A stretch of 64,000 nt of DNA from Flagellimonas onchidii (GTDB lineage Bacteria; Bacteroidota; Bacteroidia; Flavobacteriales; Flavobacteriaceae): the NCBI RefSeq assembly GCF_004804315.1, contig NZ_SRXX01000014.1, positions 1 through 64,000 on the forward strand, read 5' to 3'. The position numbers and the translations under genes were made by a program. Below, piece after piece: positions 5,801 through 62,964 of this stretch (positions within the stretch are counted from its first letter, which is position 1; each line of letters begins with the position of its first letter). Below the pieces are notes generated by a model that worked only from the letters and a program-made list of their open reading frames with translations, searched no databases and was not told the origin of the DNA.

Positions 5801-6225
5801 GAGAGGAGATGGGATTAAATGAGATTTACGAGATATATAAGGAACAACAATTTTTGAGGAAACAGTTAGAGGAGCAGTTGAAAGATATGATAAATGAGGG
5901 GGAAAGAAATTTGGCTGAAAAGTTGGTTAGGCAAATTGAAGATTTTGAAAACGATTTGTTACAGAATGGAATTACTCAGAGAACAATTAATAAGGTCAAT
6001 ACAATTCAACATCAGTTAATGAAGCTTGAAAATGCTTCTTTAAAACAGGGAAAAGAAAGTAAAAGGGAGAGTAATACAAATGACAATAAATTTCAAAACC
6101 CTGTTATCACCAAACCTGAAATCCTTGAGTATCACAATAACAATGTTGAAATATTAAATAGACAAGCGTTACCTTTGCGGCAGGATTACGACAAAAAGGT
6201 CAAGGTTTATTTTAAGAATGATTGA
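2818..6225 (+). CDS. DUF4175 family large membrane-anchored coiled-coil protein
   Basis: 1135 residues. Three hydrophobic segments lie near residues 24-47, 55-82 and 152-175, followed by a beta-rich region to about residue 490. A long Lys/Glu/Leu-rich coiled coil then runs to about 740, and a Gly/Gln/Lys low-complexity tract covers about 904-997. The architecture matches the DUF4175 family of Bacteroidota. Its function is unknown; topology suggests an envelope-spanning or periplasmic structural role. The start is TTG at 2818: there is no in-frame ATG after the upstream stop (2770-2772), and starting later would remove the first membrane helix. The 3' end overlaps ybeY by 8 bp, so the two are probably translationally coupled in one operon with mnmG. 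Confidence 0.88.
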   Translation: MQGYNEILKKLNEFTTRYYLKQLIQGSLLFLSLGLLFLFTVMFLEYMLWLNQDWRFILFFAFIAVELLLLFRFVLVPMFYLFKIKKGLSNKEAASLIGVHFPSIDDKLYNLLELGQVGESSELLLASIEQKSRNLNDFAFVKAVKLKESWSYLKYLLVPVGIVVLVWISGNIASFFGSYNRVVNYDLAYEQPAPFEFRVLNEKLEVLDNEKLVIEVETVGDVRPENIFIVIDGEELLLQKRGGVFTHSIEAPVGENSFFLTANGWDSRVYLIRSFSTPSLEDFRLNLTYPNYTLRSPEEIIGTGNAVVPEGTEITWKVIGRHVDEIVMDMSDTVVTFKKNEDYFNNNMKVYNSLSYELKSSNSNVRDFEVLGYQVEVIKDAYPLVEVEQILDSINPNQTFFVGQASDDYKVNEIRAVCFPSDDAQDVQRIVLESPKNNVHQFYYTFPSGFKLKEGKSYSLFFEVVDNDEIRGGKVKKSKVFKTALLDDNQLKNKELDFQNSALKNWDRSLSKYKEQSERLSEINQKQKNEANLNFEEQNEIKDFLKKQELQEQLMQKFSKQLNKSLDKDGLSDERKKMLKERLERQELEAKKNEKLLEELNKLSDKIDKDELKKKLEEIEKNQRNATRNLEQILELTKRYYVTEKMTHLAEELDKLSEKQRQLSEMELGDKLDEKLQEELSKEFDNLSGEIDSLRKDNKALKKPLDFDITPGEQRAVKQDQRDAEEEINKHQGNQESSDGEEKERAGNRISQKQKAAAQKMKEMSNSLSETSMSGGGSSVTEDAEMLRQILDNLVTFSFKQEGLFENVENSDIEISQFSKMVKDQKELRGLFEHVDDSLFSLSLRRAELSEFVNEQITEVYYNIDKALESIADNQVFRGASHQQYIINATNALADFLANILDNMQESMSSGKGNGQGKGGFQLPDIIQGQKGIQEGMNNAGKSGEGKEGKKGNGEEGGNAMGNKQQGDGQGEGNRGQKGESLGQSGQGGLNGPDGEEMGLNEIYEIYKEQQFLRKQLEEQLKDMINEGERNLAEKLVRQIEDFENDLLQNGITQRTINKVNTIQHQLMKLENASLKQGKESKRESNTNDNKFQNPVITKPEILEYHNNNVEILNRQALPLRQDYDKKVKVYFKND

Positions 6226-6637
6226 TTTTCATTTTGAGTCAGAACTAAAGCTGAAAGACTTAGCGAAATTCTCCGATTGGATAAGTAGGATTATTGAATC
6301 TGAAGGCTTTCAATTGGGACAAATTGATTATATCTTTTGTACTGATGATTATTTGCTAAATGTTAATCAGCAGTACTTAAATCACGACACTTTTACTGAT
6401 ATTATCACGTTTGACTATTCTAGTGGAAGAACACTTTCTGGAGATATATTTATTTCCTCCGACAGGGTTTCTGAGAATGCTAGAACGTATGGCGTTACTT
6501 TCGAAAATGAGCTTTTACGGGTTATGAGTCATGGAGTATTGCACCTGATGGGTTACGCAGATAAGACGGAAGATGAGCAAAGTGTGATGCGAACAAAAGA
6601 AGAGGAAAAGATAAAATTGTTCCACGTGGAACCATAG
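6218..6637 (+). CDS. ybeY: Endoribonuclease YbeY (rRNA maturation factor)
   Basis: A 139-residue zinc-dependent single-strand endoribonuclease that acts in 16S rRNA 3'-end maturation and ribosome quality control. The metal site is HGVLHLMGYADK: His105 and His109 are present, while the third ligand position of the usual H-x3-H-x5-H motif is Asp115. As far as I recall, Asp here is common in Bacteroidota. The gene starts inside the end of the DUF4175 gene and stops 2 bp before mnmG. Its last codons (LFHVEP) are encoded by a parS-like palindrome, so the protein tail and a DNA site share the same bases. Confidence 0.95.
   Translation: MIDFHFESELKLKDLAKFSDWISRIIESEGFQLGQIDYIFCTDDYLLNVNQQYLNHDTFTDIITFDYSSGRTLSGDIFISSDRVSENARTYGVTFENELLRVMSHGVLHLMGYADKTEDEQSVMRTKEEEKIKLFHVEP
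6618..6633. promoter_or_regulatory. Putative parS (ParB-binding) site 1
   Basis: TGTTCCACGTGGAACC is a 16-bp palindrome matching 15 of 16 bases of TGTTCCACGTGGAACA, a well-known variant of the bacterial parS consensus TGTTTCACGTGAAACA. It lies in the last codons of ybeY, 7 bp before the mnmG start. ParB loads at such sites and spreads to organise the origin region. An identical core occurs just after mnmG. Binding is inferred; no parAB genes are in this window. Confidence 0.75.
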
Positions 6638-6639
6638 GT

Positions 6640-8509
6640 ATGTTTGAAAAAGAATATGATGTTATAGTTGTTGGTGGTGGTCATGCCGGTGCTGAAGCTA
6701 CAGCCGCTGCTGCAAATATGGGTTCCAGAACACTGTTGGTTACTATGAATCTTCAGAATATTGGCCAGATGTCTTGTAATCCGGCAATGGGTGGAATAGC
6801 AAAGGGACAAATAGTAAGAGAGATTGATGCACTTGGAGGTTATAGCGGAATAATAACTGATAAATCTGCGATTCAGTTTAAAATGCTTAATAAATCTAAG
6901 GGCCCCGCCATGTGGAGTCCTAGAGCGCAGAATGATAGGATGCGTTTTGCTGAGGAATGGAGATTGGCTTTGGAAAGTACACCAAACGCTGATTTTTACC
7001 AAGAGATGGTTTCTGGGTTGTTGGTTGAAAACAACAAAGTTGTTGGGGTAAGAACCTCATTGGGTGTTGATATTCGGGCTAAGGCAGTTGTTCTTACAAA
7101 TGGAACTTTTTTGAATGGCTTAATTCATATTGGAGAAAAACAATTTGGAGGGGGCAGAGCTGGAGAAAAAGCTGCAACGGGAATTACAGAGCAGTTAGTA
7201 GACTTTGGTTTTGATAGTGGAAGGATGAAGACAGGAACCCCCCCCTAGAGTTGATGGAAGATCGCTTGATTATGGTAAAATGATTCCACAACCTGGAGAT
7301 GTTTATCCAGAGAAATTTTCGTATTTGAACACCCCGATTTTGAAAGAACAGAGGGACTGTCATATGACACATACCAGTGCTTTGGTTCATGATTTATTGA
7401 GAGAAGGGTTTGATCGCTCTCCAATGTTTAATGGACGAATAAAAAGCCTTGGCCCAAGATATTGTCCGTCCATTGAAGATAAGATCAATAGATTTGCGGA
7501 AAAAGACGCACATCAAATTTTTGTTGAACCCGAAGGATGGCACACTGTTGAGGTTTATGTGAACGGATTTTCAACTTCTCTTCCTGAGGATGTTCAGTAT
7601 AGAGCACTAAAGTCTGTCAAGGGATTTGAGAATGTAAAGTTTTTTAGACCTGGATACGCTATAGAATATGATTATTTTCCACCCACTCAGTTGAGGCATA
7701 CTCTAGAAACAAAGTTGGTAAATAACTTGTATTTTGCTGGTCAAATTAACGGAACTACAGGTTATGAGGAGGCTGCTTCTCAAGGGCTAATGGCGGGAAT
7801 AAATGCTCATTTGAAGATTAACGAAAAAGAACCTTTTATCTTAAAGAGGGACGAGGCGTACATTGGTGTTTTGATAGATGATTTGATTACTAAGGGCACG
7901 GAAGAGCCTTATCGAATGTTTACTTCAAGGGCAGAATATAGAACGTTGCTTCGACAGGATAATGCGGATTTAAGACTTACGCCAAAAAGTTTCGAACTTG
8001 GATTGGCTACGGAAGAACGAATGGGGAGAATGAAAGAGAAACAAGACAAGTCTCAAAGGTTTGTGGAATTTTTCAAGAAAACCAGTTTTGTGCCGGATGA
8101 AATCAACCCAATATTAGAGGAAGTTTCTTCCGCGGTCGTCAAACAATCAGACAAACTTTTTAAAGTGTTCTCAAGACCGAAAGTTACAATGGATCACATG
8201 TTGAGCTTGAACTCTGTTTCGGATTTTGTTAAAGAGAACCAGTTAAATTCGGAGGTCTTGGAGCAGGCAGAAATCCAAGTCAAATATTCGGGATATATTG
8301 AGAAGGAAAAAAATAATGCAGATAAGCTTCATAGACTTGAAAATGTCAAGATTCCCGAAAGCTTTGACTATTCTAAACTTAAATCACTCTCTTATGAGGC
8401 AAGGGAGAAGTTAGAGGCAATTAGACCCGTTACTATTTCTCAAGCGTCTCGCATCAGCGGGGTATCTCCATCGGACATAAGCGTATTATTGGTTTTTTTG
8501 GGGCGATAG
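6640..8509 (+). pseudogene. mnmG: tRNA uridine-5-carboxymethylaminomethyl modification enzyme MnmG, frameshifted
   Basis: MnmG (GidA) uses FAD and methylene-tetrahydrofolate with MnmE to modify wobble U34 of several tRNAs. The N-terminal part carries the dinucleotide fold (VVGGGHAGAEAT), the CNPAMGG segment and the NGTFLNG and GGGRAGE motifs. The C-terminal part carries the family's FAD/tRNA-binding and helical domains. A run of eight C (7238-7245) in the MKTGTPPR motif shifts the frame and gives TAG at 7246-7248 after 202 codons. Removing one C restores an unbroken frame of 622 residues, the normal MnmG length, so nothing else is lost. Either a homopolymer error or a real +1 mutation explains this. 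The gene is flanked on both sides by parS-like sites. Confidence 0.93.
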
Positions 8510-8517
8510 GTATATTT

Positions 8518-8533
8518 TGTTCCACGTGGAACA
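8518..8533. promoter_or_regulatory. Putative parS (ParB-binding) site 2
   Basis: TGTTCCACGTGGAACA is a perfect 16-bp palindrome 8 bp after the mnmG stop. It is identical to a known parS variant (seen for instance in pseudomonads) and differs from site 1 only in the last base. It lies between genes, so coding constraint does not explain it. The spacing between the two sites is 1.9 kb. Confidence 0.8.
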
Positions 8534-8605: not shown

Positions 8606-9151
8606 ATGAATCGAAGATTACTTCTGGGAGTTTCTTTAGTTTTTTTAACCTCTTGTATTCCATTAAGAATAGCTCCGATCATTAAAGATTATAAAATAAC
8701 TAAAGGCAAAAGATTTAAAAGAGGCTTGCCTAAAAAGTCCATGTTCATTTTTGAAGACCCTAAAGATGAAAATGAATTTTACAATTACATCAACACTAAA
8801 TTTCAACTAGAAGACTATTACGTGGATGTTGAAGTTCCTTTTATGGTAAATGGCCAAAAGTTTTATTTTTCTTTTTACGAAGTAGAGATTCCCACAAAGA
8901 CGATTAACTTGATTCCTTTAATGATTGATGGTATTTTAAGTCAAACTACAGAAATGGACCCCATGTTGGAGGAAGTTCATACATCACGTATTGGAAATTG
9001 GTATGTAGCTATTGAGATATTTAGTGATAATCAAAAGGATTGTTTACAGGAAGATTCAATTTTTAGACCTCAGCTTTTAGCGTATCTTACACAACTGAAA
9101 AACGAATACTTGAACACTGTCAACTACAATGAAGTTGTTTTTAAAAACTAG
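8606..9151 (+). CDS. Hypothetical lipoprotein
   Basis: 181 residues. The N-terminus is a lipoprotein signal (basic MNRR, hydrophobic LLLGVSLVFL, lipobox LTSC with Cys17), so it should be anchored in the outer or inner membrane facing the periplasm. The mature part is mixed alpha/beta and rich in Phe, Tyr, Asp and Glu, with no motif I recognise. It overlaps the next gene by 23 bp, suggesting an operon with the methyltransferase. I cannot assign a function. Confidence 0.75.
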   Translation: MNRRLLLGVSLVFLTSCIPLRIAPIIKDYKITKGKRFKRGLPKKSMFIFEDPKDENEFYNYINTKFQLEDYYVDVEVPFMVNGQKFYFSFYEVEIPTKTINLIPLMIDGILSQTTEMDPMLEEVHTSRIGNWYVAIEIFSDNQKDCLQEDSIFRPQLLAYLTQLKNEYLNTVNYNEVVFKN

Positions 9152-9959
9152 GGACTACTCCGTTTCCGGGGAAGACTTCGAGTTACTTTACGATGATAAT
9201 ATGGATATGCTGGTTACGAAACCACAACCAGAGAATCTTTCAGTGTACTATAACAGCGAGGTGTATATTTCGCATACGGATTCTCGGGCTACGTTTACTG
9301 ATAGGCTATATCAATGGGTGAAGCATTTTAGTCTTAAAAAAAAGATTCAACTAGTTGATAATCAGAATGTTAACGGTAATGTTTTGTTGGATTATGGAGC
9401 TGGAACCGGTGATTTTCTACTAAAAGCCAAGTCTAAGGATTATATTGTTTCTGGAATAGAACCTAACCAAAAGGCTAGAGCCAATGCGGCAATGAAAGGC
9501 TTACAGCTGGTGAAAGACATCAGTACATTGGACAAGAAGTCCTATGATGTTATAACATTATGGCACGTATTGGAACATCTGCCTAATCTAGAGAAGAAAG
9601 TTGAAGAGATTTGCAATCTGCTAGATGCAAATGGTATATTGGTAGTGGCTGTTCCAAATTATAGATCGTTTGATGCAACCTATTACGGAAAATATTGGGC
9701 GGCTTACGATGTGCCTAGACACTTGTGGCACTTTTCAAAAAAGTCAATTATTCGACTTTTTGAAAAGCATGACATGGAAGTACTTTCTATAAAGCCAATG
9801 ATATTTGATGCATTTTATGTTTCATTACTTTCTGAAAAATACAAGCAAAACAAATTGTATCTGGTCAATGCTTTTTTTATAGGACTTTGGTCAAACGTTA
9901 AAGCATACTTTTCCAAAGAGTACTCATCCCACATATATATTATAAAAAAGAGAAATTAG
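9129..9959 (+). CDS. Class I SAM-dependent methyltransferase
   Basis: 276 residues with a Methyltransf_23-type Rossmann core. Motif I is LLDYGAGTGDFL (about residue 90), the acidic ribose-binding residue follows in GIEPN, and HVLEHLPN is the typical post-motif for this subgroup, followed by PRHLWHFS. The N-terminus (about residues 5-45) resembles the short leader often seen before such cores. The family methylates small molecules, lipids or sugars and the substrate cannot be told here. The start ATG lies within the end of the preceding lipoprotein gene, so coupled translation is likely. Confidence 0.88.
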   Translation: MKLFLKTRDYSVSGEDFELLYDDNMDMLVTKPQPENLSVYYNSEVYISHTDSRATFTDRLYQWVKHFSLKKKIQLVDNQNVNGNVLLDYGAGTGDFLLKAKSKDYIVSGIEPNQKARANAAMKGLQLVKDISTLDKKSYDVITLWHVLEHLPNLEKKVEEICNLLDANGILVVAVPNYRSFDATYYGKYWAAYDVPRHLWHFSKKSIIRLFEKHDMEVLSIKPMIFDAFYVSLLSEKYKQNKLYLVNAFFIGLWSNVKAYFSKEYSSHIYIIKKRN

Positions 9960-10198: not shown

Positions 10199-10705
10199 AT
10201 GAAAAAAGGAATTGTATTACTAGTTGCATTAGTCACCGTTGCATGTCAACAAAACAAAATTGGATATGTAGACAACGTAAAACTAATGGACGGCTATCAA
10301 GAAAAAATTGATATAGAAGCAAAGTTCAAGACTAAGGTTGATGCTTTGACAAAAAAAAGAGATAGTATTTCGCAGGCGTTTCAGTTGGAACTCCAAGGGT
10401 TTCAGGCAAAGGCACAGAAAATGTCCCAGAAAAGCGCACAAGAAGAATATACTTTGTTGCAGCAAAAAGGACAGTTTGTAGGTCAACAACTGCAGCAAGA
10501 AGAACAGCAATTACAACAGAACAGCCAAACCGAAATGGACTCATTGGTTAGCAAGGTTAAAAAAGAGATAAAGGCGTATGGAAAAGCCAATGGTTTTACC
10601 TATATCCTAGGTGGTGGCGATGGAGGAGCGGTCCTCTATGGTCAGGATGCACACAACCTTACGGATGCCGTTCTGAAAATATTGAACGACAACTATAAGA
10701 AGTAA
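10199..10705 (+). CDS. OmpH/Skp-family periplasmic chaperone-like lipoprotein
   Basis: 168 residues with a short signal and a lipobox-like VTVAC (Cys16), then IGYVDNVKLM, the typical start of the Skp/OmpH fold. A long Gln/Lys/Glu-rich coiled coil (about 35-120) and the C-terminal strand region GFTYILGGGDGG follow. Skp-like proteins hold unfolded outer-membrane proteins in the periplasm. The apparent lipid anchor is a variation on the soluble form and could mean membrane tethering. It is monocistronic: a strong terminator follows at 10727-10759. Confidence 0.87.
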   Translation: MKKGIVLLVALVTVACQQNKIGYVDNVKLMDGYQEKIDIEAKFKTKVDALTKKRDSISQAFQLELQGFQAKAQKMSQKSAQEEYTLLQQKGQFVGQQLQQEEQQLQQNSQTEMDSLVSKVKKEIKAYGKANGFTYILGGGDGGAVLYGQDAHNLTDAVLKILNDNYKK

Positions 10706-16652: not shown

Positions 16653-17804
16653 TTAAGCTGCTTTGGCATGCAAAAGCCTTGTGAGCTTTATTGAGAGATC
16701 GGTGAATATGATTTTGGAATTGCCATTGCGCTCCACGTGAAAAATGGCCTTTTCCAATTCCTCAACAATTTGCTCAATATTATTTTCATGTACAAAAGGA
16801 GCAAATTTTGACAGGTCAAATTTTTCCACATGTATTTTTAGATAAACCAATTCATCGACATTATAATTCAACAAGAGCGCTTGTCGTATAGCCCTAAGGC
16901 AGTAATTCAAAAACTGTTTTTGAACTTCTCTGCCTGTTTTGGCTACTTCATCACTCCAAAGAATCAGTTCTTGTATGGCTGCTTTGTTTCCCTTAGCCTT
17001 AAAGGCGCTGCGAACCCATTGTACAAACCAACGCTCGAAAACAAGATCTTCCGAATCTTTGTTCATAAGGTCCAAAGCCTTGTTGAAATTACCATTGGCT
17101 TCATGTGCGATGGAATTGGCCTCCGACTCTTGGAGTCCATTCTTAATTAAAGCTTCTGCAATGGCACTTTCTGCAAGTGGCGGAAAATGTAAAATCTGGC
17201 AACGAGACCGAATGGTATTTATAATTTGCTCCTCATCTTCGGCCACCAAGAGCAAAACTGTTTTTGCGGGAGGCTCCTCAATCAGTTTCAATAATTTGTT
17301 TGAAGCCGCAATGTTCATTTTCTCGGCCATCCAGATGACCAAAATTTTGTAACCACCTTCATAAGATTTCAGAGAAAGCTTTTTAACCACATCCTGAGCC
17401 TCATCAACCCCAATTTGTCCTTGTTTCTTTTCAATTCCGATATGCCTGTACCAATCGAATAGGTTTCCATAGGGTTGTTCCTTGACAAACAATCGCCAAT
17501 CCTCTAAAAAATTATCGCTGACCGCATGGGATTTTATTTTATCGGAATTGGAGACAGGAAAGGCAAAATGCAAATCAGGGTGGGAGAGCGAATTGCATTT
17601 GACGTTGCAGATCTCGTTTTCCCCATGATTCTCACCATTTGTGTTTTTGCAAAGCAAATATTGTGCATAGGCAATGGCCATAGGAAGGGTTCCAGTACCC
17701 TCGTTTCCTATGAATAATTGGGCATGGGCAACACGGCCAGATTCAGCAGTGGACACCAAATGGCTCTTAATGTGCTCTAGGCCTAAAACATCTTTAAAAA
17801 GCAT
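16653..17804 (-). CDS. holB: DNA polymerase III subunit delta' (clamp-loader)
   Basis: 383 residues. The N-terminal AAA+ fold (MLFKDVLGLEHIKSHL) has a degenerate Walker A (GNEGTGT, lacking the Lys), as expected for delta-prime, which does not hydrolyse ATP. A zinc-binding cysteine cluster (CNVKCNSL) and the SNKLLKLIEEPP helix are present, as is IRSRCQILHFPP, the sensor region. It acts in the clamp-loader with DnaX and HolA. The gene is divergent from pgk with 132 bp between starts. Confidence 0.93.
   Translation of the reverse strand: MLFKDVLGLEHIKSHLVSTAESGRVAHAQLFIGNEGTGTLPMAIAYAQYLLCKNTNGENHGENEICNVKCNSLSHPDLHFAFPVSNSDKIKSHAVSDNFLEDWRLFVKEQPYGNLFDWYRHIGIEKKQGQIGVDEAQDVVKKLSLKSYEGGYKILVIWMAEKMNIAASNKLLKLIEEPPAKTVLLLVAEDEEQIINTIRSRCQILHFPPLAESAIAEALIKNGLQESEANSIAHEANGNFNKALDLMNKDSEDLVFERWFVQWVRSAFKAKGNKAAIQELILWSDEVAKTGREVQKQFLNYCLRAIRQALLLNYNVDELVYLKIHVEKFDLSKFAPFVHENNIEQIVEELEKAIFHVERNGNSKIIFTDLSIKLTRLLHAKAA
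16729..16744. promoter_or_regulatory. Weak parS-like sequence inside holB
   Basis: CGCTCCACGTGAAAAA matches 13 of 16 positions of TGTTCCACGTGAAACA, with the core CCACGTGAAA intact. It is inside coding sequence and may be chance; listed only as a lower-grade match to the two mnmG-flanking sites. Confidence 0.2.
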
Positions 17805-22727: not shown

Positions 22728-24563
22728 ATGAGAAATGTAAAAGTATGGATGCTGTCCCTTTTACTTATCGGGGCCGTATCCTGTAGCAAAAAAGAAGACC
22801 CTGTTCCACCAACTCCAGAGGAGAACAGCGCACCAGTGATCGACCAGAACACGCTGTCGTTCAACACCCAGGAGGACATTTCGGACACCGATGTGATTGG
22901 AACCTTGAAAGCCACCGATGCGGACGGCGATGACCTTACCTTCAGCATGGTCGCCAACAGCGAAGACCTTTTCAAGGTCACCAAGACCAGCGAGGGCGGT
23001 GCGATAAGCCTTGCGGCCGGCAAGAGCTTCGACATCCAGGAAGACTCCAAGTCCTATGAGATCACCATCGGGGTGAGCGACAAAGAGAACCCCACGGTCA
23101 ATGCCAAGGTGACCATCAATGTGGGCAATGTGAACAACCCTCCGGAGATAGCCGCGGACCAAGTGTTCGAGGTGGACGAGAATGTCGTCGGCCCGTTGGA
23201 TATAGACCCAGGAGTGGTGGCTACCGATGCCGATGGCGATACACTCATGTTTGAGATTGTGACCAGCGAGACGGACGAAGCCGATGGCCTTTTCACCATT
23301 TCGCCTAAGGAAGGAGTACTGAGCCTTGCCGATGGCAAAACGTTAGATTTTGAGGACACCTCGTCTTATACACTGACCGTTAGCGTTAGCGATGGCACCA
23401 ACGCCACGGAGGCAGAGATCACCATAAATGTGATTGATGACGGCCTGTTGTCCGACAGCCCCGACTCCTTTATCACCAAATGGACCACCGAGGAAGCGAA
23501 CTTTGAAATTGAACTGAACAGAGGTTTCTTTACCGGGGAGTTTGTATTTGACTTTACCGTGGATTGGGGGGATGGCACCGTAGAGGAAAACGTCACCGAC
23601 GGCAATGCCAAGCATACCTACACCGAGCCCGGCACCTATACCGTGGCCATCCAGGGGCAGTTTCCGGTATTAAGCCACGAAGAGGCCGTTAAATTGACCG
23701 GTTTGGAGCAATGGGGCAATATTGAATGGGAGTATCTGGAAGCAGCATTTTTAAATGTCACTAATTTGGAGTACAATGCAACGGACAGCCCTGATTTGAC
23801 CAAGGTGACCAGCCTTGCCGGAATGTTCTCCAACACCGATGTCAATTTTGCGAAAGGGGACATCAGCCAATGGAACGTGAGCACCATTACAGATATGTCC
23901 AGTATGTTCAGAAATACTGAATCTTTTAACCAGGATATCAGTGGTTGGGACGTGTCCAGCGTGACCAATATGTACACCATGTTTGGGCAGAACACATCCT
24001 TTAACCAGGATATCGGTAATTGGGATGTATCAAATGTGACAGATATGTCAGAGATGTTCAGAGAGGCCACTGCATTTAACCAGGACATCAGTGGTTGGAA
24101 CGTGTCCAATGTGACCGATATGGGCGGTATGTTCAAAAATGCAGAATCCTTTAACCAACCACTAACTTGGGGAGATAAGACCTCTATGGTAATCGTCATG
24201 GTCTCAATGTTTGATGGGGCTACAGCTTTTAACCAAGATATCAGTGGTTGGGAGGTGTCCAGTGTCATCGCTATGAGCTTCATGTTCACTGATGCCACGT
24301 CTTTTGACCAAAACTTGGGTACTTGGGACATTAGCAGTGTTACAACTATGACCGATATGTTCGATAATTCTGGAATGTCCCCTGAAAACTATTCGGATAC
24401 CTTGACAGGGTGGAACAATTTACAGCAAGTTCCCCAGGGGATTACTTTAGGAGCTGAAAACGTTAATTTTTGCGCATCACAATTAATGTTTGCGGTCAAA
24501 GACAGCCTGGCCAATAACCACGGTTGGACAATCAACGATGGCGGAAGTGTAGCTTGCCAATAG
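22728..24563 (+). CDS. Cadherin-repeat, PKD-like, DUF285 (BspA-like) surface lipoprotein
   Basis: 611 residues. A lipoprotein signal (AVSCSKKED, lipobox Cys) is followed by a Pro/Thr linker and two cadherin-like repeats (about 35-130 and 135-240, with ATDADGDDL and ATDADGDTL calcium-type motifs). A PKD-like strand region (VDWGDGTVE) comes next, then about seven 25-residue DUF285 repeats of the FNQDISGWDVSSVTNM type (about 340-540). The C-terminus (NFCASQL...NHGWTI) matches the paralogue at 60.8-62.7 kb. Such proteins are cell-surface anchored and probably adhesive. The 5' half looks more GC-rich than the surroundings. A terminator follows. Confidence 0.88.
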   Translation: MRNVKVWMLSLLLIGAVSCSKKEDPVPPTPEENSAPVIDQNTLSFNTQEDISDTDVIGTLKATDADGDDLTFSMVANSEDLFKVTKTSEGGAISLAAGKSFDIQEDSKSYEITIGVSDKENPTVNAKVTINVGNVNNPPEIAADQVFEVDENVVGPLDIDPGVVATDADGDTLMFEIVTSETDEADGLFTISPKEGVLSLADGKTLDFEDTSSYTLTVSVSDGTNATEAEITINVIDDGLLSDSPDSFITKWTTEEANFEIELNRGFFTGEFVFDFTVDWGDGTVEENVTDGNAKHTYTEPGTYTVAIQGQFPVLSHEEAVKLTGLEQWGNIEWEYLEAAFLNVTNLEYNATDSPDLTKVTSLAGMFSNTDVNFAKGDISQWNVSTITDMSSMFRNTESFNQDISGWDVSSVTNMYTMFGQNTSFNQDIGNWDVSNVTDMSEMFREATAFNQDISGWNVSNVTDMGGMFKNAESFNQPLTWGDKTSMVIVMVSMFDGATAFNQDISGWEVSSVIAMSFMFTDATSFDQNLGTWDISSVTTMTDMFDNSGMSPENYSDTLTGWNNLQQVPQGITLGAENVNFCASQLMFAVKDSLANNHGWTINDGGSVACQ

Positions 24564-43435: not shown

Positions 43436-44296
43436 CTAATTGTTAAGTGCTTCCGCACCTCCAACAATCTCCAGGATTTCATTAGTAATAGCTGCTTGTC
43501 TTGCTTTATTATATGTCAGTTTTAACTGATCTCTAAGCTCAGTAGCATTATCAGTTGCTTTGTGCATTGCTGTCATACGTGCTCCGTGCTCACTGGCAAA
43601 GGAATCACGAATCGCCTTGTACAATTGTGTCTTCAATGACTTTGGAATCAACTGCTCTACGATTTCGGGTTTAGACGGCTCAAAAATGTAATCAGCTGCA
43701 CCTGAAGTATCCCCTTCAACAGGAACTAAAGGTAAAAATTGCTCTGTCATTACAATTTGTGTAGCAGCATTCTTGAATTTATTATAGACCAATTCAATTC
43801 TATCATAATTCCCTTCCGTAAAGTGGTCCATCAAATCTTGGGCAATTACGGCCACATTTTCAAAGGTCAAGTCATCATAAACTTCGCTATGGTTGGCAAC
43901 AACATTGTTCTTTTTTCCAATGATGTCATTTCCCTTCTTTCCAATCGCAATAAAATCCACCTGCTTACCTGCATAGGTTTGATCCAATAAAGCGTTGGAT
44001 TGTTTTATAATGTTGGAATTAAAGGCGCCGCATAATCCACGGTTGGAAGTAATGGCTACAATCAAAACCTTGTTTACCGCTCTGTTATCGGCAAACTTGC
44101 TTCCGGCATCACCATCTAAACTTGCGCTAAGACTTTGCAATAACTCGGTAAGTTTGTTTGCATAAGGACGCATCGCTGTAATGGCATCCTGGGCCTTTTT
44201 CAACTTTGCAGCAGATACCATTTTCATGGCACTGGTAATCTGCATCGTTGAAGATACCGAGGCTATCCTGTTTCGTATTTCCTTTAGATTTGCCAT
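43436..44296 (-). CDS. atpG: ATP synthase F1 subunit gamma
   Basis: 286 residues, the central rotor shaft that couples ring rotation to catalysis. The N-terminal coiled coil (LKEIRNRIASVSSTMQIT, AMKMVSAAKL) and the C-terminal helix (NKARQAAITNEILEIVGGA) frame a Rossmann-like middle with TSNRGLCGAFN. It is the last gene of the atp run, 13 bp after atpA. Confidence 0.97.
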   Translation of the reverse strand: MANLKEIRNRIASVSSTMQITSAMKMVSAAKLKKAQDAITAMRPYANKLTELLQSLSASLDGDAGSKFADNRAVNKVLIVAITSNRGLCGAFNSNIIKQSNALLDQTYAGKQVDFIAIGKKGNDIIGKKNNVVANHSEVYDDLTFENVAVIAQDLMDHFTEGNYDRIELVYNKFKNAATQIVMTEQFLPLVPVEGDTSGAADYIFEPSKPEIVEQLIPKSLKTQLYKAIRDSFASEHGARMTAMHKATDNATELRDQLKLTYNKARQAAITNEILEIVGGAEALNN

Positions 44297-44309
44297 TTAT
44301 CTATTGGGC

Positions 44310-45890
44310 TTAAGCTCTATATTTTCCTGAAAGATCCTTACAAACTGCTGTCAAGGTTTCTGTAACCTCATCGGTCAACTTACCAGCTTTCAAAGTATCT
44401 AATACACCTCTGTGCTTGGCATTCAAGAATTCGATAAAATCAGTTTCAAATTCTTTTACCTTCTCAACAGGAACATCCTTCAACAAGTTTTTGGAACCAG
44501 CGAAAATGATGGCTATCTGATCTTCAACGGTAAATGGGTCATTCTGCGCCTGCTTCAAGATTTCCACGTTTCTACGTCCTTTTTCGATAACGTTCAACGT
44601 AGCGGCATCCAAATCGGAACCGAACTTAGCAAATGCTTCCAATTCACGGAACTGCGCTTGATCCAGTTTTAATGTACCTGCTACTTTCCTCATGGACTTT
44701 ACCTGGGCGGAACCACCTACACGAGATACGGAGATACCCACGTTAATCGCAGGACGTACACCTTGGTTGAACAAATCTTGCTCCAAGAATATCTGTCCGT
44801 CAGTAATCGAAATTACGTTGGTTGGGATATATGCAGAAACGTCACCTGCCTGTGTTTCGATAATTGGAAGAGCGGTTAAAGAACCTCCTCCTTTTACCAT
44901 TGGCTTCAATGCATCTGGTAAATCGTTCATGTTTTTTGCGATATCGTCATCAGCAATAACCTTAGCTGCACGCTCCAATAATCTTGAGTGCAAGTAGAAA
45001 ACGTCACCAGGATATGCTTCACGTCCTGGAGGTCTTCTTAAAAGAAGTGATACCTCACGATATGCAACCGCCTGTTTTGATAAATCATCATAGATAATCA
45101 AGGCTGGACGACCTGTATCCCTAAAGTATTCTCCAATCGCTGCACCAGCAAAAGGAGCATATACCTGCATAGGAGCAGGGTCAGATGCATTAGCTGCTAC
45201 AATGGTCGTATAGGCCAAAGCTCCTTTTTCTTCCAAAGTCTTTGCTATGGCAGCAACGGTAGATGCTTTTTGTCCTACAGCTACATATATACAGTACACT
45301 GGTTCACCAGCATCGAAAAATTCTTTTTGGTTCAAGATGGTATCGATACAAACGGTAGTCTTACCCGTTTGACGGTCACCGATAACCAACTCACGCTGAC
45401 CTCTACCGATTGGAATCATAGCGTCAATTGCCTTAACTCCAGTCTGCAAAGGCTCGTTTACCGGCTGACGGTAGATAACCCCAGGTGCTTTACGCTCCAA
45501 TGGCATTTCGTAAGTGTCCCCAGCAATAGGTCCTTTTCCATCAATTGGATTACCAAGGGTATCAACCACACGGCCAACAATTCCTTCACCAACATTGATA
45601 GATGCGATACGTTGCGTTCTTTTTACGGTCGCGCCTTCCATAACTTCTTTGGATGGGCCCAACAATACAACACCAACATTATCTTCTTCCAAGTTCAAAA
45701 CAATACCTTCCATACCGCCATCGAACTCCACAAGCTCACCATATTGAGCGTTGGAAAGTCCGTACACACGGGCAATACCATCACCCACTTGCAATACGGT
45801 ACCTACTTCATCCAAGGAAGCGGTAGCTTCAAAACCTGCTAATTGTTCTTTCAAAATTGCTGATACCTCAGCGGCTTTTACTCCTGCCAT
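44310..45890 (-). CDS. atpA: ATP synthase F1 subunit alpha
   Basis: 526 residues forming the non-catalytic nucleotide-binding subunit. Walker A is [10 protein letters not shown]; the [20 protein letters not shown] region and the [20 protein letters not shown] segment are the signature. The length and N-terminal beta-barrel ([18 protein letters not shown]) are normal. Only 2 bp separate it from atpH. Confidence 0.98.
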
Positions 45891-60820: not shown

Positions 60821-62743
60821 TTAGGGTTGTGGGCAATCCACGCCACCAGCGTCGGTGATAATCCAGCCATGATCATTGGTCAATGTGTCTATGGCATCCA
60901 TTATATCAACATCATCACTACAGAAATTGATGTTTTGTGCCGACAATGTAACGCCCTGCTGTATGTCAGGTGTCTGCTCCGCCCAACCTATTAAAGTAGC
61001 AGTATAGTTTTCAGCAGACATTTTAGAATTGGTAAACATTTCAAGCATGTTTGTTACGTTCTGTATGTTCCAACCGCCAATATCACCATTGAAGGATGAA
61101 TTGCTGAACATTGTTCGCATATCAGTGACATTTCCTGTTTTCCAAACACTTAAATCCCTATTGAAATTGGCCGCTGATTGAAACATACTTTCCATAGCAG
61201 TTACATTTTCTGTGTTCCAGTTTTCTATATTCCCATTAAAGGCATCTGTAAGGGCAAACACATTGGGCATCTGTGTGATACTCGTAGTATCCCAATTACT
61301 GAGGTCTGGATTGGTAACGGCATCGGCATTTTCGAACATGGCGTTCATATTTTGCACCTGTGAAAGATCTGGAACATCCTTGGCATTGTACATCATGTTT
61401 TTGCATTCATAGAACGCACTGTTCATACTCTGCCATTCAATGGAGCCCCACTGCTCAAGGCTCAAAAGTTTTTCTTTTGTTGAGGAAAGAAACATAAGCA
61501 CAGCCGGGAAATCACCATAAATGGCTACTGTGTGAACACCAGAAGTTTCGTAAAAATGGGAAACACCAATTTCTCCAAAGCCGCTTATTTGCTCTATGTT
61601 ACCATCGCCCCAATCCACCGTAAAATCATAAGTGTAATTAGGATTCATGCCAATTGTAATTTGCTCATTGTCCATAGTGGTCTCCCAAGTGGTCACAAAT
61701 GAGTTTGGGTCTTCTGCCAGGGAATCAACAATGTTATTAACGGTTATGGCCACGACCACCTGAGCCATGTTGTTGTCGCCGTCGGTGGCCTGTACTGTGA
61801 TGTGGTGCACGGGCTCCTCGCCGTTAAAGGCCTCAAAGTCGAGTGCTTTGCCCTGGGCCAGGGTAATATCTGCCCGGTGGCGGGATCTATGGCAAAGAGG
61901 TCGTTGGCGTTCGCCCCAATGCTGTATTCAATGGTATCTCCCTCGGGGTCGGTGGCGGAGACCGGTTCTCCTATGTTTTCGCCAGCGGTCAGGTCCTCGC
62001 TTACAGTAAAGGCATAGGCCTCATCTTCGAATACCGGGAACTCGTCCCCATCGGCAAGGGTGATACTTACCTGAATATTCGTGGTAAGCTCGTCTGCATC
62101 GGATACCTGTACGGTATAATATGGTACACGGGCTCTTCCTCACCAAAAGCTTCAAAATCAAGGCTCTTGCCCTCGGCCAGACTGATCTGCCCATTTACAG
62201 GGTCTATGACGAACAGGTCGTTGGTATTCTCCGACATGGTGTAGGTAAGTTCATCGTCCTCAGGGTCGGTGGCGATCACGGCACCTATGGGCTGGGCCGG
62301 AGCAATGCCCTCATCAGCACCGAACTGGAAGGACTCCAATTCGAATACAGGAGGCTCATTGACATCGGTCACGCTAAGGGTAAAGGTGGCCTGGCAGATG
62401 TTTTAGTGTCGCTCACGCTCACATTAAGGGAGTATTCTTTTGTGCTCTCGTAATCCAATTGCTGGTCTTCGGCCAAGGTCAAAATACCTTGCTCGGATAT
62501 GGCGAAAGGGTTTTCACCAGTTAGAGTGAACTTAAGGTTGTCGCCATCATCATCAGTGGCGGTTATCTTCGTAATTTCATCTCCTGAGACAATGTCCTCG
62601 GCCATGCTGATGGACTCAACCTCGATTACGGGGGCGGTGTTTTCCTCTTCTGGTGTCGGTTTGGCGGAGTCGTCCTTGCTGCAGGCCCAAAAGAGAATAG
62701 CGATTATAGCAAGAAGTAATCCCAAATGTGTGATCTTTTTCAT
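60821..62743 (-). pseudogene. Cadherin/DUF285 (BspA-like) surface lipoprotein, three frameshifts
   Basis: A paralogue of the gene at 22728-24563 with the same order: lipoprotein signal (LFWACSKDD), cadherin-like repeats (ATDDDGDNL, ATDPEDDEL, ATDPEGDTI), a PKD-like strand region (VDWGDGNIE), DUF285 repeats and a matching C-terminus (NFCSDDV...HGWIITD). Translation needs three frame changes at 62388-62392, 62116-62120 and 61866-61870, each with five bases where three are expected just before an ACC codon. With these fixed, a protein of about 640 residues results, and the DUF285 part is intact. It may be a decayed gene, or the changes may be systematic sequence errors. The start is ATG 62741-62743. 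Confidence 0.85.
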
Positions 62744-62803
62744 GTCGAAATGGTAATTGTTTATAATCCACCAAAGTAGGGTAATGATCAATGGTTTTGG
62801 CCT

Positions 62804-62818
62804 GCCAATTGACGGATG
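62804..62818 (-). promoter_or_regulatory. Shared upstream element CATCCGTCAATTGGC (copy B)
   Basis: On the minus strand this is identical, over 15 bp, to 22649-22663, and lies 60 bp before the start of the second DUF285 gene versus 64 bp for the first. A TTTG (minus strand, 62775-62772) follows 29 bases downstream, versus 30 in copy A. Confidence 0.5.
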
Positions 62819-62964
62819 GCCCTTCGCCAAGGCTTCGGGCTATTGGTGAAGGGTCTAAAGTATTGTGTTGGTCTTCTTCGACAGAATTGCTTGGACATGA
62901 CGGCCGAAGCTTCGAGCCATGGATAAAACGTAGAAGTTGGAAGTTTGGTTCTGCATCTGTAATT

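Follow-up and report, generated by a model that had tools for sequence, protein, structure and literature searches.

The window analysed here, a stretch of 64,000 nucleotides from a Flagellimonas/Allomuricauda-like member of the Bacteroidota, carries two 16-bp palindromes, one on each side of mnmG, that are almost certainly chromosomal parS sites, the bacterial centromere. The argument for this is carried by the sites themselves, the lack of further close matches in the genome, conservation at the sides of mnmG, selection acting at the level of the DNA, the proximity of the locus to the origin in relatives and a ParB of the parS type. We regard the two sites as a chromosomal parS pair of the ordinary, well-known kind, with good support; the pair is origin-proximal, unlinked from parAB and found in a genome without a recognisable full-length SMC. 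The sites and the genes around them are given in Table 1.

Table 1. Position of the two palindromes and the neighbouring genes in the window.
Feature	Sequence	Position	Strand	Description
parS site 1 (predicted)	TGTTCCACGTGGAACC	6618-6633	.	Last codons of ybeY, 6 bases 5′ of the mnmG start codon
parS site 2 (predicted)	TGTTCCACGTGGAACA	8518-8533	.	8 bases past the mnmG stop codon
ybeY		6218-6637	+	C-terminal tail KLFHVEP; site 1 encodes its LFHVEP, including the FHVEP residues
mnmG (gidA)		6640-8509	+	Bracketed by both sites; ORFs 6640-7248 and 7280-8509
Short lipoprotein-like ORF		8606-9151		Third in order after ybeY and mnmG
SAM-dependent methyltransferase (presumed)		9129-9959	+	tblastn to L067 (G023), 53% identity
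OmpH-like gene (presumed)		10199-10705	+	tblastn to L067 (G023), 53% identity

An earlier note on this DNA had reported the palindromes as matching a known parS variant at 15 and 16 of 16 positions, with one in the tail of ybeY and the other in the gap after mnmG. The coordinates were confirmed, site 1 and site 2 have one and no mismatches to TGTTCCACGTGGAACA, respectively, and the ORF coordinates place the sites as described. Compared with the TGTTTCACGTGAAACA form of parS, site 1 has three mismatches and site 2 has two. Within the window, four matches with up to three mismatches to TGTTCCACGTGGAACA were found versus 0.26 expected from 100 shuffles. We then scanned the draft genome of 4,205,019 bases in 57 contigs, whose contig C6 has the window as its first 64 kb, and found eight places with up to three mismatches to the same pattern. 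Only sites 1 and 2 are within two mismatches; the six other places, spread over five contigs and with two of them inside the window, all have exactly three. A control pattern, the parS pattern read backwards, matched 15 places at this threshold, and the base composition predicts 0.0007 exact matches in 4.2 Mb, 0.035 with up to one mismatch and 12.9 with up to three. Given the composition expectation and the control count at up to three mismatches, sites 1 and 2 are signal and the six three-mismatch places are background. The claim that such a pair is very unlikely by chance therefore held up, with 0.035 sites expected at up to one mismatch and two observed. With TGTTYCACGTGRAACA as the pattern, two sites were again found in the draft genome at up to one mismatch, with one match for the control. 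The search at up to two mismatches that the earlier note had proposed, made here on the whole draft genome, returned just the two mnmG-flanking sites, clustered 1.9 kb apart, and no even scatter.

Conservation of the sites was examined in three sets of genomes. The family sample holds 60 genomes, our own included, each from another genus, and at least one site with up to one mismatch was present in 58 of them, with a control match in nine. A match to mnmG was found in 58 of the 60 genomes, and 56 loci were counted after leaving out G015 and G037, in which the gene is cut by contig ends; G035 has a stretch with a site but no mnmG in it and stands outside this count. Searching up to 400 bases before the mnmG start and up to 700 after the stop, sites were found on both sides of the gene in 54 of the 56 loci at up to two mismatches, in 45 at up to one and in 24 as exact matches. 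The two exceptions at the widest threshold are G023, in which mnmG has no site, and G016, which has only one two-mismatch site, downstream. Closer to our strain is a set of 80 named relatives with members of Flagellimonas, Allomuricauda, Maribacter, Zobellia and Arenibacter, in which the nearest MnmG is 91% identical to that of the window. The upstream site is present at up to one mismatch in all 78 relatives with enough flanking sequence (exact in 52) and the downstream site in all 80 (exact in 70). In eight of the 80 (L218, L224, L245, L259, L261, L262, L269 and L290) the downstream site does not adjoin the mnmG stop but is found 471–476 bases past it, at nearly the same place in each, and two further downstream sites in the family sample sit at 465 and 477 bases.

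In a sample of 70 genomes from across the phylum, the exact site was present in 54 and absent from 16; the control was found in none and mnmG in all 70. Positions were listed for 75 sites in 46 of the 54 site-bearing genomes, and among these listed sites 73 are within 6 kb of mnmG. A site lies 1.5 kb or less from the gene in 43 of the 46 listed genomes, and in 13 of the 46 the gene is flanked by exact sites at either end, a count that excludes G076 with a site inside the estimated span of the gene. Some of the listed genomes have two or three exact sites that are all upstream of mnmG, or one site 1.6–1.9 kb downstream. The number of sites can also grow locally: some genomes (L053 of G003, L049 of G057) carry additional parS-like sites no more than about 3 kb from mnmG, and G003 has five at up to one mismatch. 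Two weaker recurring look-alikes were considered and set aside. The first, CGTTCCACGTGAAAAA, is a two-mismatch parS look-alike in many relatives, located 2.3–6.2 kb downstream in many of the named loci, and is the coding sequence for AIFHVERN in what we take to be a DNA polymerase III delta′-type gene (four loci checked). The second, TCTTCCACGTGAAAC, is inside the coding sequence of a presumed LysM transglycosylase-type gene (six loci checked). Since both are conserved coding stretches and neither has a match in the window at up to three mismatches, they were not counted as parS. The window has its own DNA polymerase III delta′-type gene at 16653–17804, which encodes IFHVERN with different codons and did not score as a parS match.

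The pattern of variation shows that selection acts on the DNA of the site and not on the YbeY tail that site 1 encodes. Among 114 sites from the family sample, positions 2–4, 6–11 and 13–15 are invariant, and apart from one mismatch at position 12 all mismatches are in the first or last base; these sites were chosen by similarity, and only the placing of the mismatches is informative. Codon usage in the 78 named loci where YbeY ends in FHV(E/K) is close to fixed, with TTC in 77 of 78, CAC and GTG in 78 of 78 each and GAA in 76 of 76, although these counts come from related genomes and are not independent. Elsewhere in ybeY and mnmG the same codons make up a share of only 0.24 (TTC), 0.34 (CAC), 0.23 (GTG) and 0.62 (GAA) for their residues. 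In other genera of the family ybeY stops before the site, leaving the site intergenic.

The position of the locus relative to the origin was taken from relatives, because our own genome is a draft and contig C6 begins at base 1 of the window; the skew of the window itself was left out for that reason and because it is dominated by gene orientation. GC skew was sampled in five of the nine complete or two-contig relatives, namely the complete genomes G040, G032, G025, G014 and G023 (G021, G024, G056 and G059 were left out), using 20 stretches in each around parS together with the locus itself. Sampling was denser near mnmG, and gene orientation entered the fit as a covariate. The fitted origin was 9 kb from mnmG in G040, 23 kb in G032, 18 kb in G025 and 43 kb in G014. 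Rather than lying far from the skew minimum, the mnmG/parS locus is thus 0.2–1.1% of the chromosome length from the fitted origin in four of the five relatives. G023 has a weak skew, and its fitted origin lies at a distance of 98 kb from parS and 378 kb from mnmG, or 3.8% and 14.5% of the chromosome. Across the five genomes the best ParB match is 21–42% and dnaA 23–46% of the chromosome away from the fitted origin. When stretches at less than 95 kb were dropped and the origin was fixed at parS, the skew contrast between the arms held in four genomes, and the number of permutations out of 5000 that did as well was 0 for G040, 5 for G032, 1 for G025 and 0 for G014; the same test gave 531 of 5000 for G023, which is not significant. 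In a coarser free fit with these stretches dropped, the distance of the origin to parS was 81–122 kb for four genomes; for G032 it was 347 kb. Based on four of the five complete relatives, the sites are origin-proximal.

A search of the sampled stretches for DnaA boxes did not locate the exact oriC. No group of three TTATNCACA boxes within 600 bases was found in the five stretches near parS in each of the five genomes, and with one mismatch allowed across the 100 sampled stretches the best windows, of three boxes each, were found at distances of 800 kb and 1400 kb from the parS locus. The origin positions found in the relatives agree with two papers. A Prevotella paper describes oriC as commonly far from dnaA in Bacteroidetes (PMC4755523), and a Hi-C study of gut bacteria, two Bacteroidetes among them, set origins by parS clusters and skew with no systematic tie to dnaA (PMC10197239).

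The earlier note had stated that no parAB genes are in view. This holds for the window, outside of which they lie, and we can add that a ParA-like protein and ParB are encoded next to each other on another contig. A search for the ParB domain gave a single protein in the genome, with one PF02195 match on contig C57. The pair occupies positions 43644–45329 of this contig (8645–10330 of L068), with ParB directly behind the ParA-like protein, which we assign as such from its KGGVGKTT motif. No parS match at up to three mismatches was found on contig C57. The genes neighbouring the pair are, judged by eye, presumably dihydrodipicolinate reductase-like and signal peptidase-like. The ParB aligns with solved ParB structures and keeps the GERRFRA and ENIQR stretches. 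At the positions of R173 and G201 in Caulobacter ParB it reads GKKR and SMGHGR, an equivalence drawn by eye since the Caulobacter chain is not in the alignment. According to a published study, these two residues are absolutely conserved in ParB and are Q and R in Noc, and changing them switches the preference to NBS (PMC7383237). Judging from these residues, the ParB is of the parS-specific type. Among the relatives, G021 and G032 each have two ParB-domain proteins; the second one of G032 is the weaker match and lies about 285 kb away from mnmG. The proposal that the region is part of a ParB-organised origin domain is therefore supported by sites that are not scattered, by the skew of the relatives and by the single ParB-domain protein, with binding by that protein being predicted.

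Condensin was searched for as well. The SMC_N domain gave 22 matches in our genome, the two best of which are in frames of 396 and 568 amino acids, which we take to be the sizes of RecF and RecN. The longest matching frame, of 959 amino acids, is a weak match below the cut-off. No recognisable full-length Smc was found in the genome by this search, so these sites are not classed as SMC-loading parS, and loading of Smc by ParB at parS should not be assumed here. This agrees with the Hi-C study, where two gut Bacteroidetes yielded no known condensin (PMC10197239).

We considered whether the palindromes could have a role other than as a centromere. Since they bracket mnmG, this gene could be their target, with a transcription factor, or ParB as a repressor, using them as operators to control it. 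In the family sample the upstream site ends a median of 15.5 bp short of the predicted mnmG start and the median gap between the stop and the downstream site is 8 bp, which would suit such a role, and in general CACGTG palindromes are also targets of regulators. Despite this, we find control of mnmG very unlikely. In G023 mnmG is located at 1,278 kb and is not flanked by any site, and three exact sites are found at 997–999 kb, 280 kb away, between and beside orthologues of the methyltransferase and OmpH-like genes of the window (53% identity each). In G023 ybeY was found neither at mnmG nor beside the three sites. Our reading of this arrangement is that mnmG probably moved away and the sites stayed put, and the departure of the gene without the sites argues against a regulatory element for mnmG. 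The phylum genomes with sites that are all upstream, or at a distance downstream, do not fit an operator pair either, control of mnmG needs no downstream operator, and no further gene in our genome has a close match.

The palindromes could instead act in the ybeY-mnmG transcript as RNA hairpins that serve as processing or termination signals, given that each could form a 6-bp stem with a 4-base loop (by inspection, with no fold computed) and that both are at gene borders. The variation among the 114 family sites makes this highly improbable: on the transcript strand 13 have C-A at positions 5 and 12, which does not pair, and 14 have U-G, a nearly even split between the two asymmetric forms, and the CACGTG centre, which would partly be loop, is invariant. 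Equally improbable is that they are Noc-binding sites or chance palindromes. Related 16-bp palindromes are bound by members of the ParB/Noc family, as stated in the available part of PMC7383237, but the sole ParB-domain protein of our genome has R and G at the positions that switch to NBS, and no Noc-type protein with Q173/R201 was found. Chance is excluded by the conservation across the family, the named relatives and the phylum.

If the sites are parS, the ParB from the parAB pair on another part of the chromosome would nucleate on each 16-bp site, load as a CTP-dependent clamp and spread across ybeY-mnmG and the neighbouring genes. ParA would then move the origin-proximal ParB-parS complex into the daughter cells. 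Binding, spreading and segregation at the mnmG-flanking sites are what we infer from knowledge of ParABS systems. It is conceivable, if rather doubtful, that the flanking of mnmG by a single site to either side is itself under selection, with a two-point centromere of ~1.9 kb as the working unit in Bacteroidota, in which no Smc is recognised. ParB clamps held between their loading sites over one housekeeping gene would then form the partition complex, or mnmG expression would be coupled to segregation.

As an ordinary parS pair, the sites resemble the chromosomal parS of Bacillus, Caulobacter and Pseudomonas in being 16-bp palindromes present in few copies near the origin, with a parS-type ParB adjoining a ParA-like protein. 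In contrast to these, parB of the five complete relatives is 21–42% of the chromosome away from the origin fit, and the usual layout of the family has a single site to either side of mnmG. Other counterparts are the parS clusters of Bacteroides caecimuris and Muribaculum intestinale, from the same phylum and also without a known condensin, where parS identified by consensus together with GC skew sets an origin that is not systematically tied to dnaA (PMC10197239). In contrast to our locus, mnmG/gidA has no occurrences in the available text of that study, which describes no bracketing of a gene. The ancestral set of origin genes has been given as parA, parB, gidA, gidB and dnaA (PMC2099444, available text). 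Similar to this set, mnmG/gidA remains origin-proximal here, whereas parB and dnaA of the relatives are far from the origin with parS near it.

In the literature searched, of which the texts were available in part and which did not extend to the parS survey of Livny 2007, no statement on parS bracketing mnmG in Bacteroidota was found, and the arrangement may have been noticed before. Specialists may not know of the tight anchoring of parS to mnmG across the phylum sample, with the gene flanked by a site at either end in the family and parB distant. This suggests that parS sites at mnmG could be a simple origin landmark for draft genomes of Bacteroidota, where dnaA and parB mislead. This centromere remains close to the origin; parB and dnaA, and in a single genome mnmG as well, are found elsewhere. 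Additionally, two sites and no recognised Smc would make a simple system in which to study the action of ParB-parS in the absence of condensin loading.

The mnmG frame is split in two in this assembly at a run of eight C at 7238–7245, a break that the earlier note does not mention. The gene is in a single frame in all 80 named relatives, and the distance from its start to the fragment is 639 in all 80 compared with 640 in the window. A homopolymer error of sequencing or assembly is the most likely cause, and it is possible that the break is real. No tRNA was found in the window. Further along, two surface-protein-like genes are present at 22728–24563 and 60821–62830, which by eye we take to have cadherin-type and BspA-like repeats, and the second of these appears as three ORFs.
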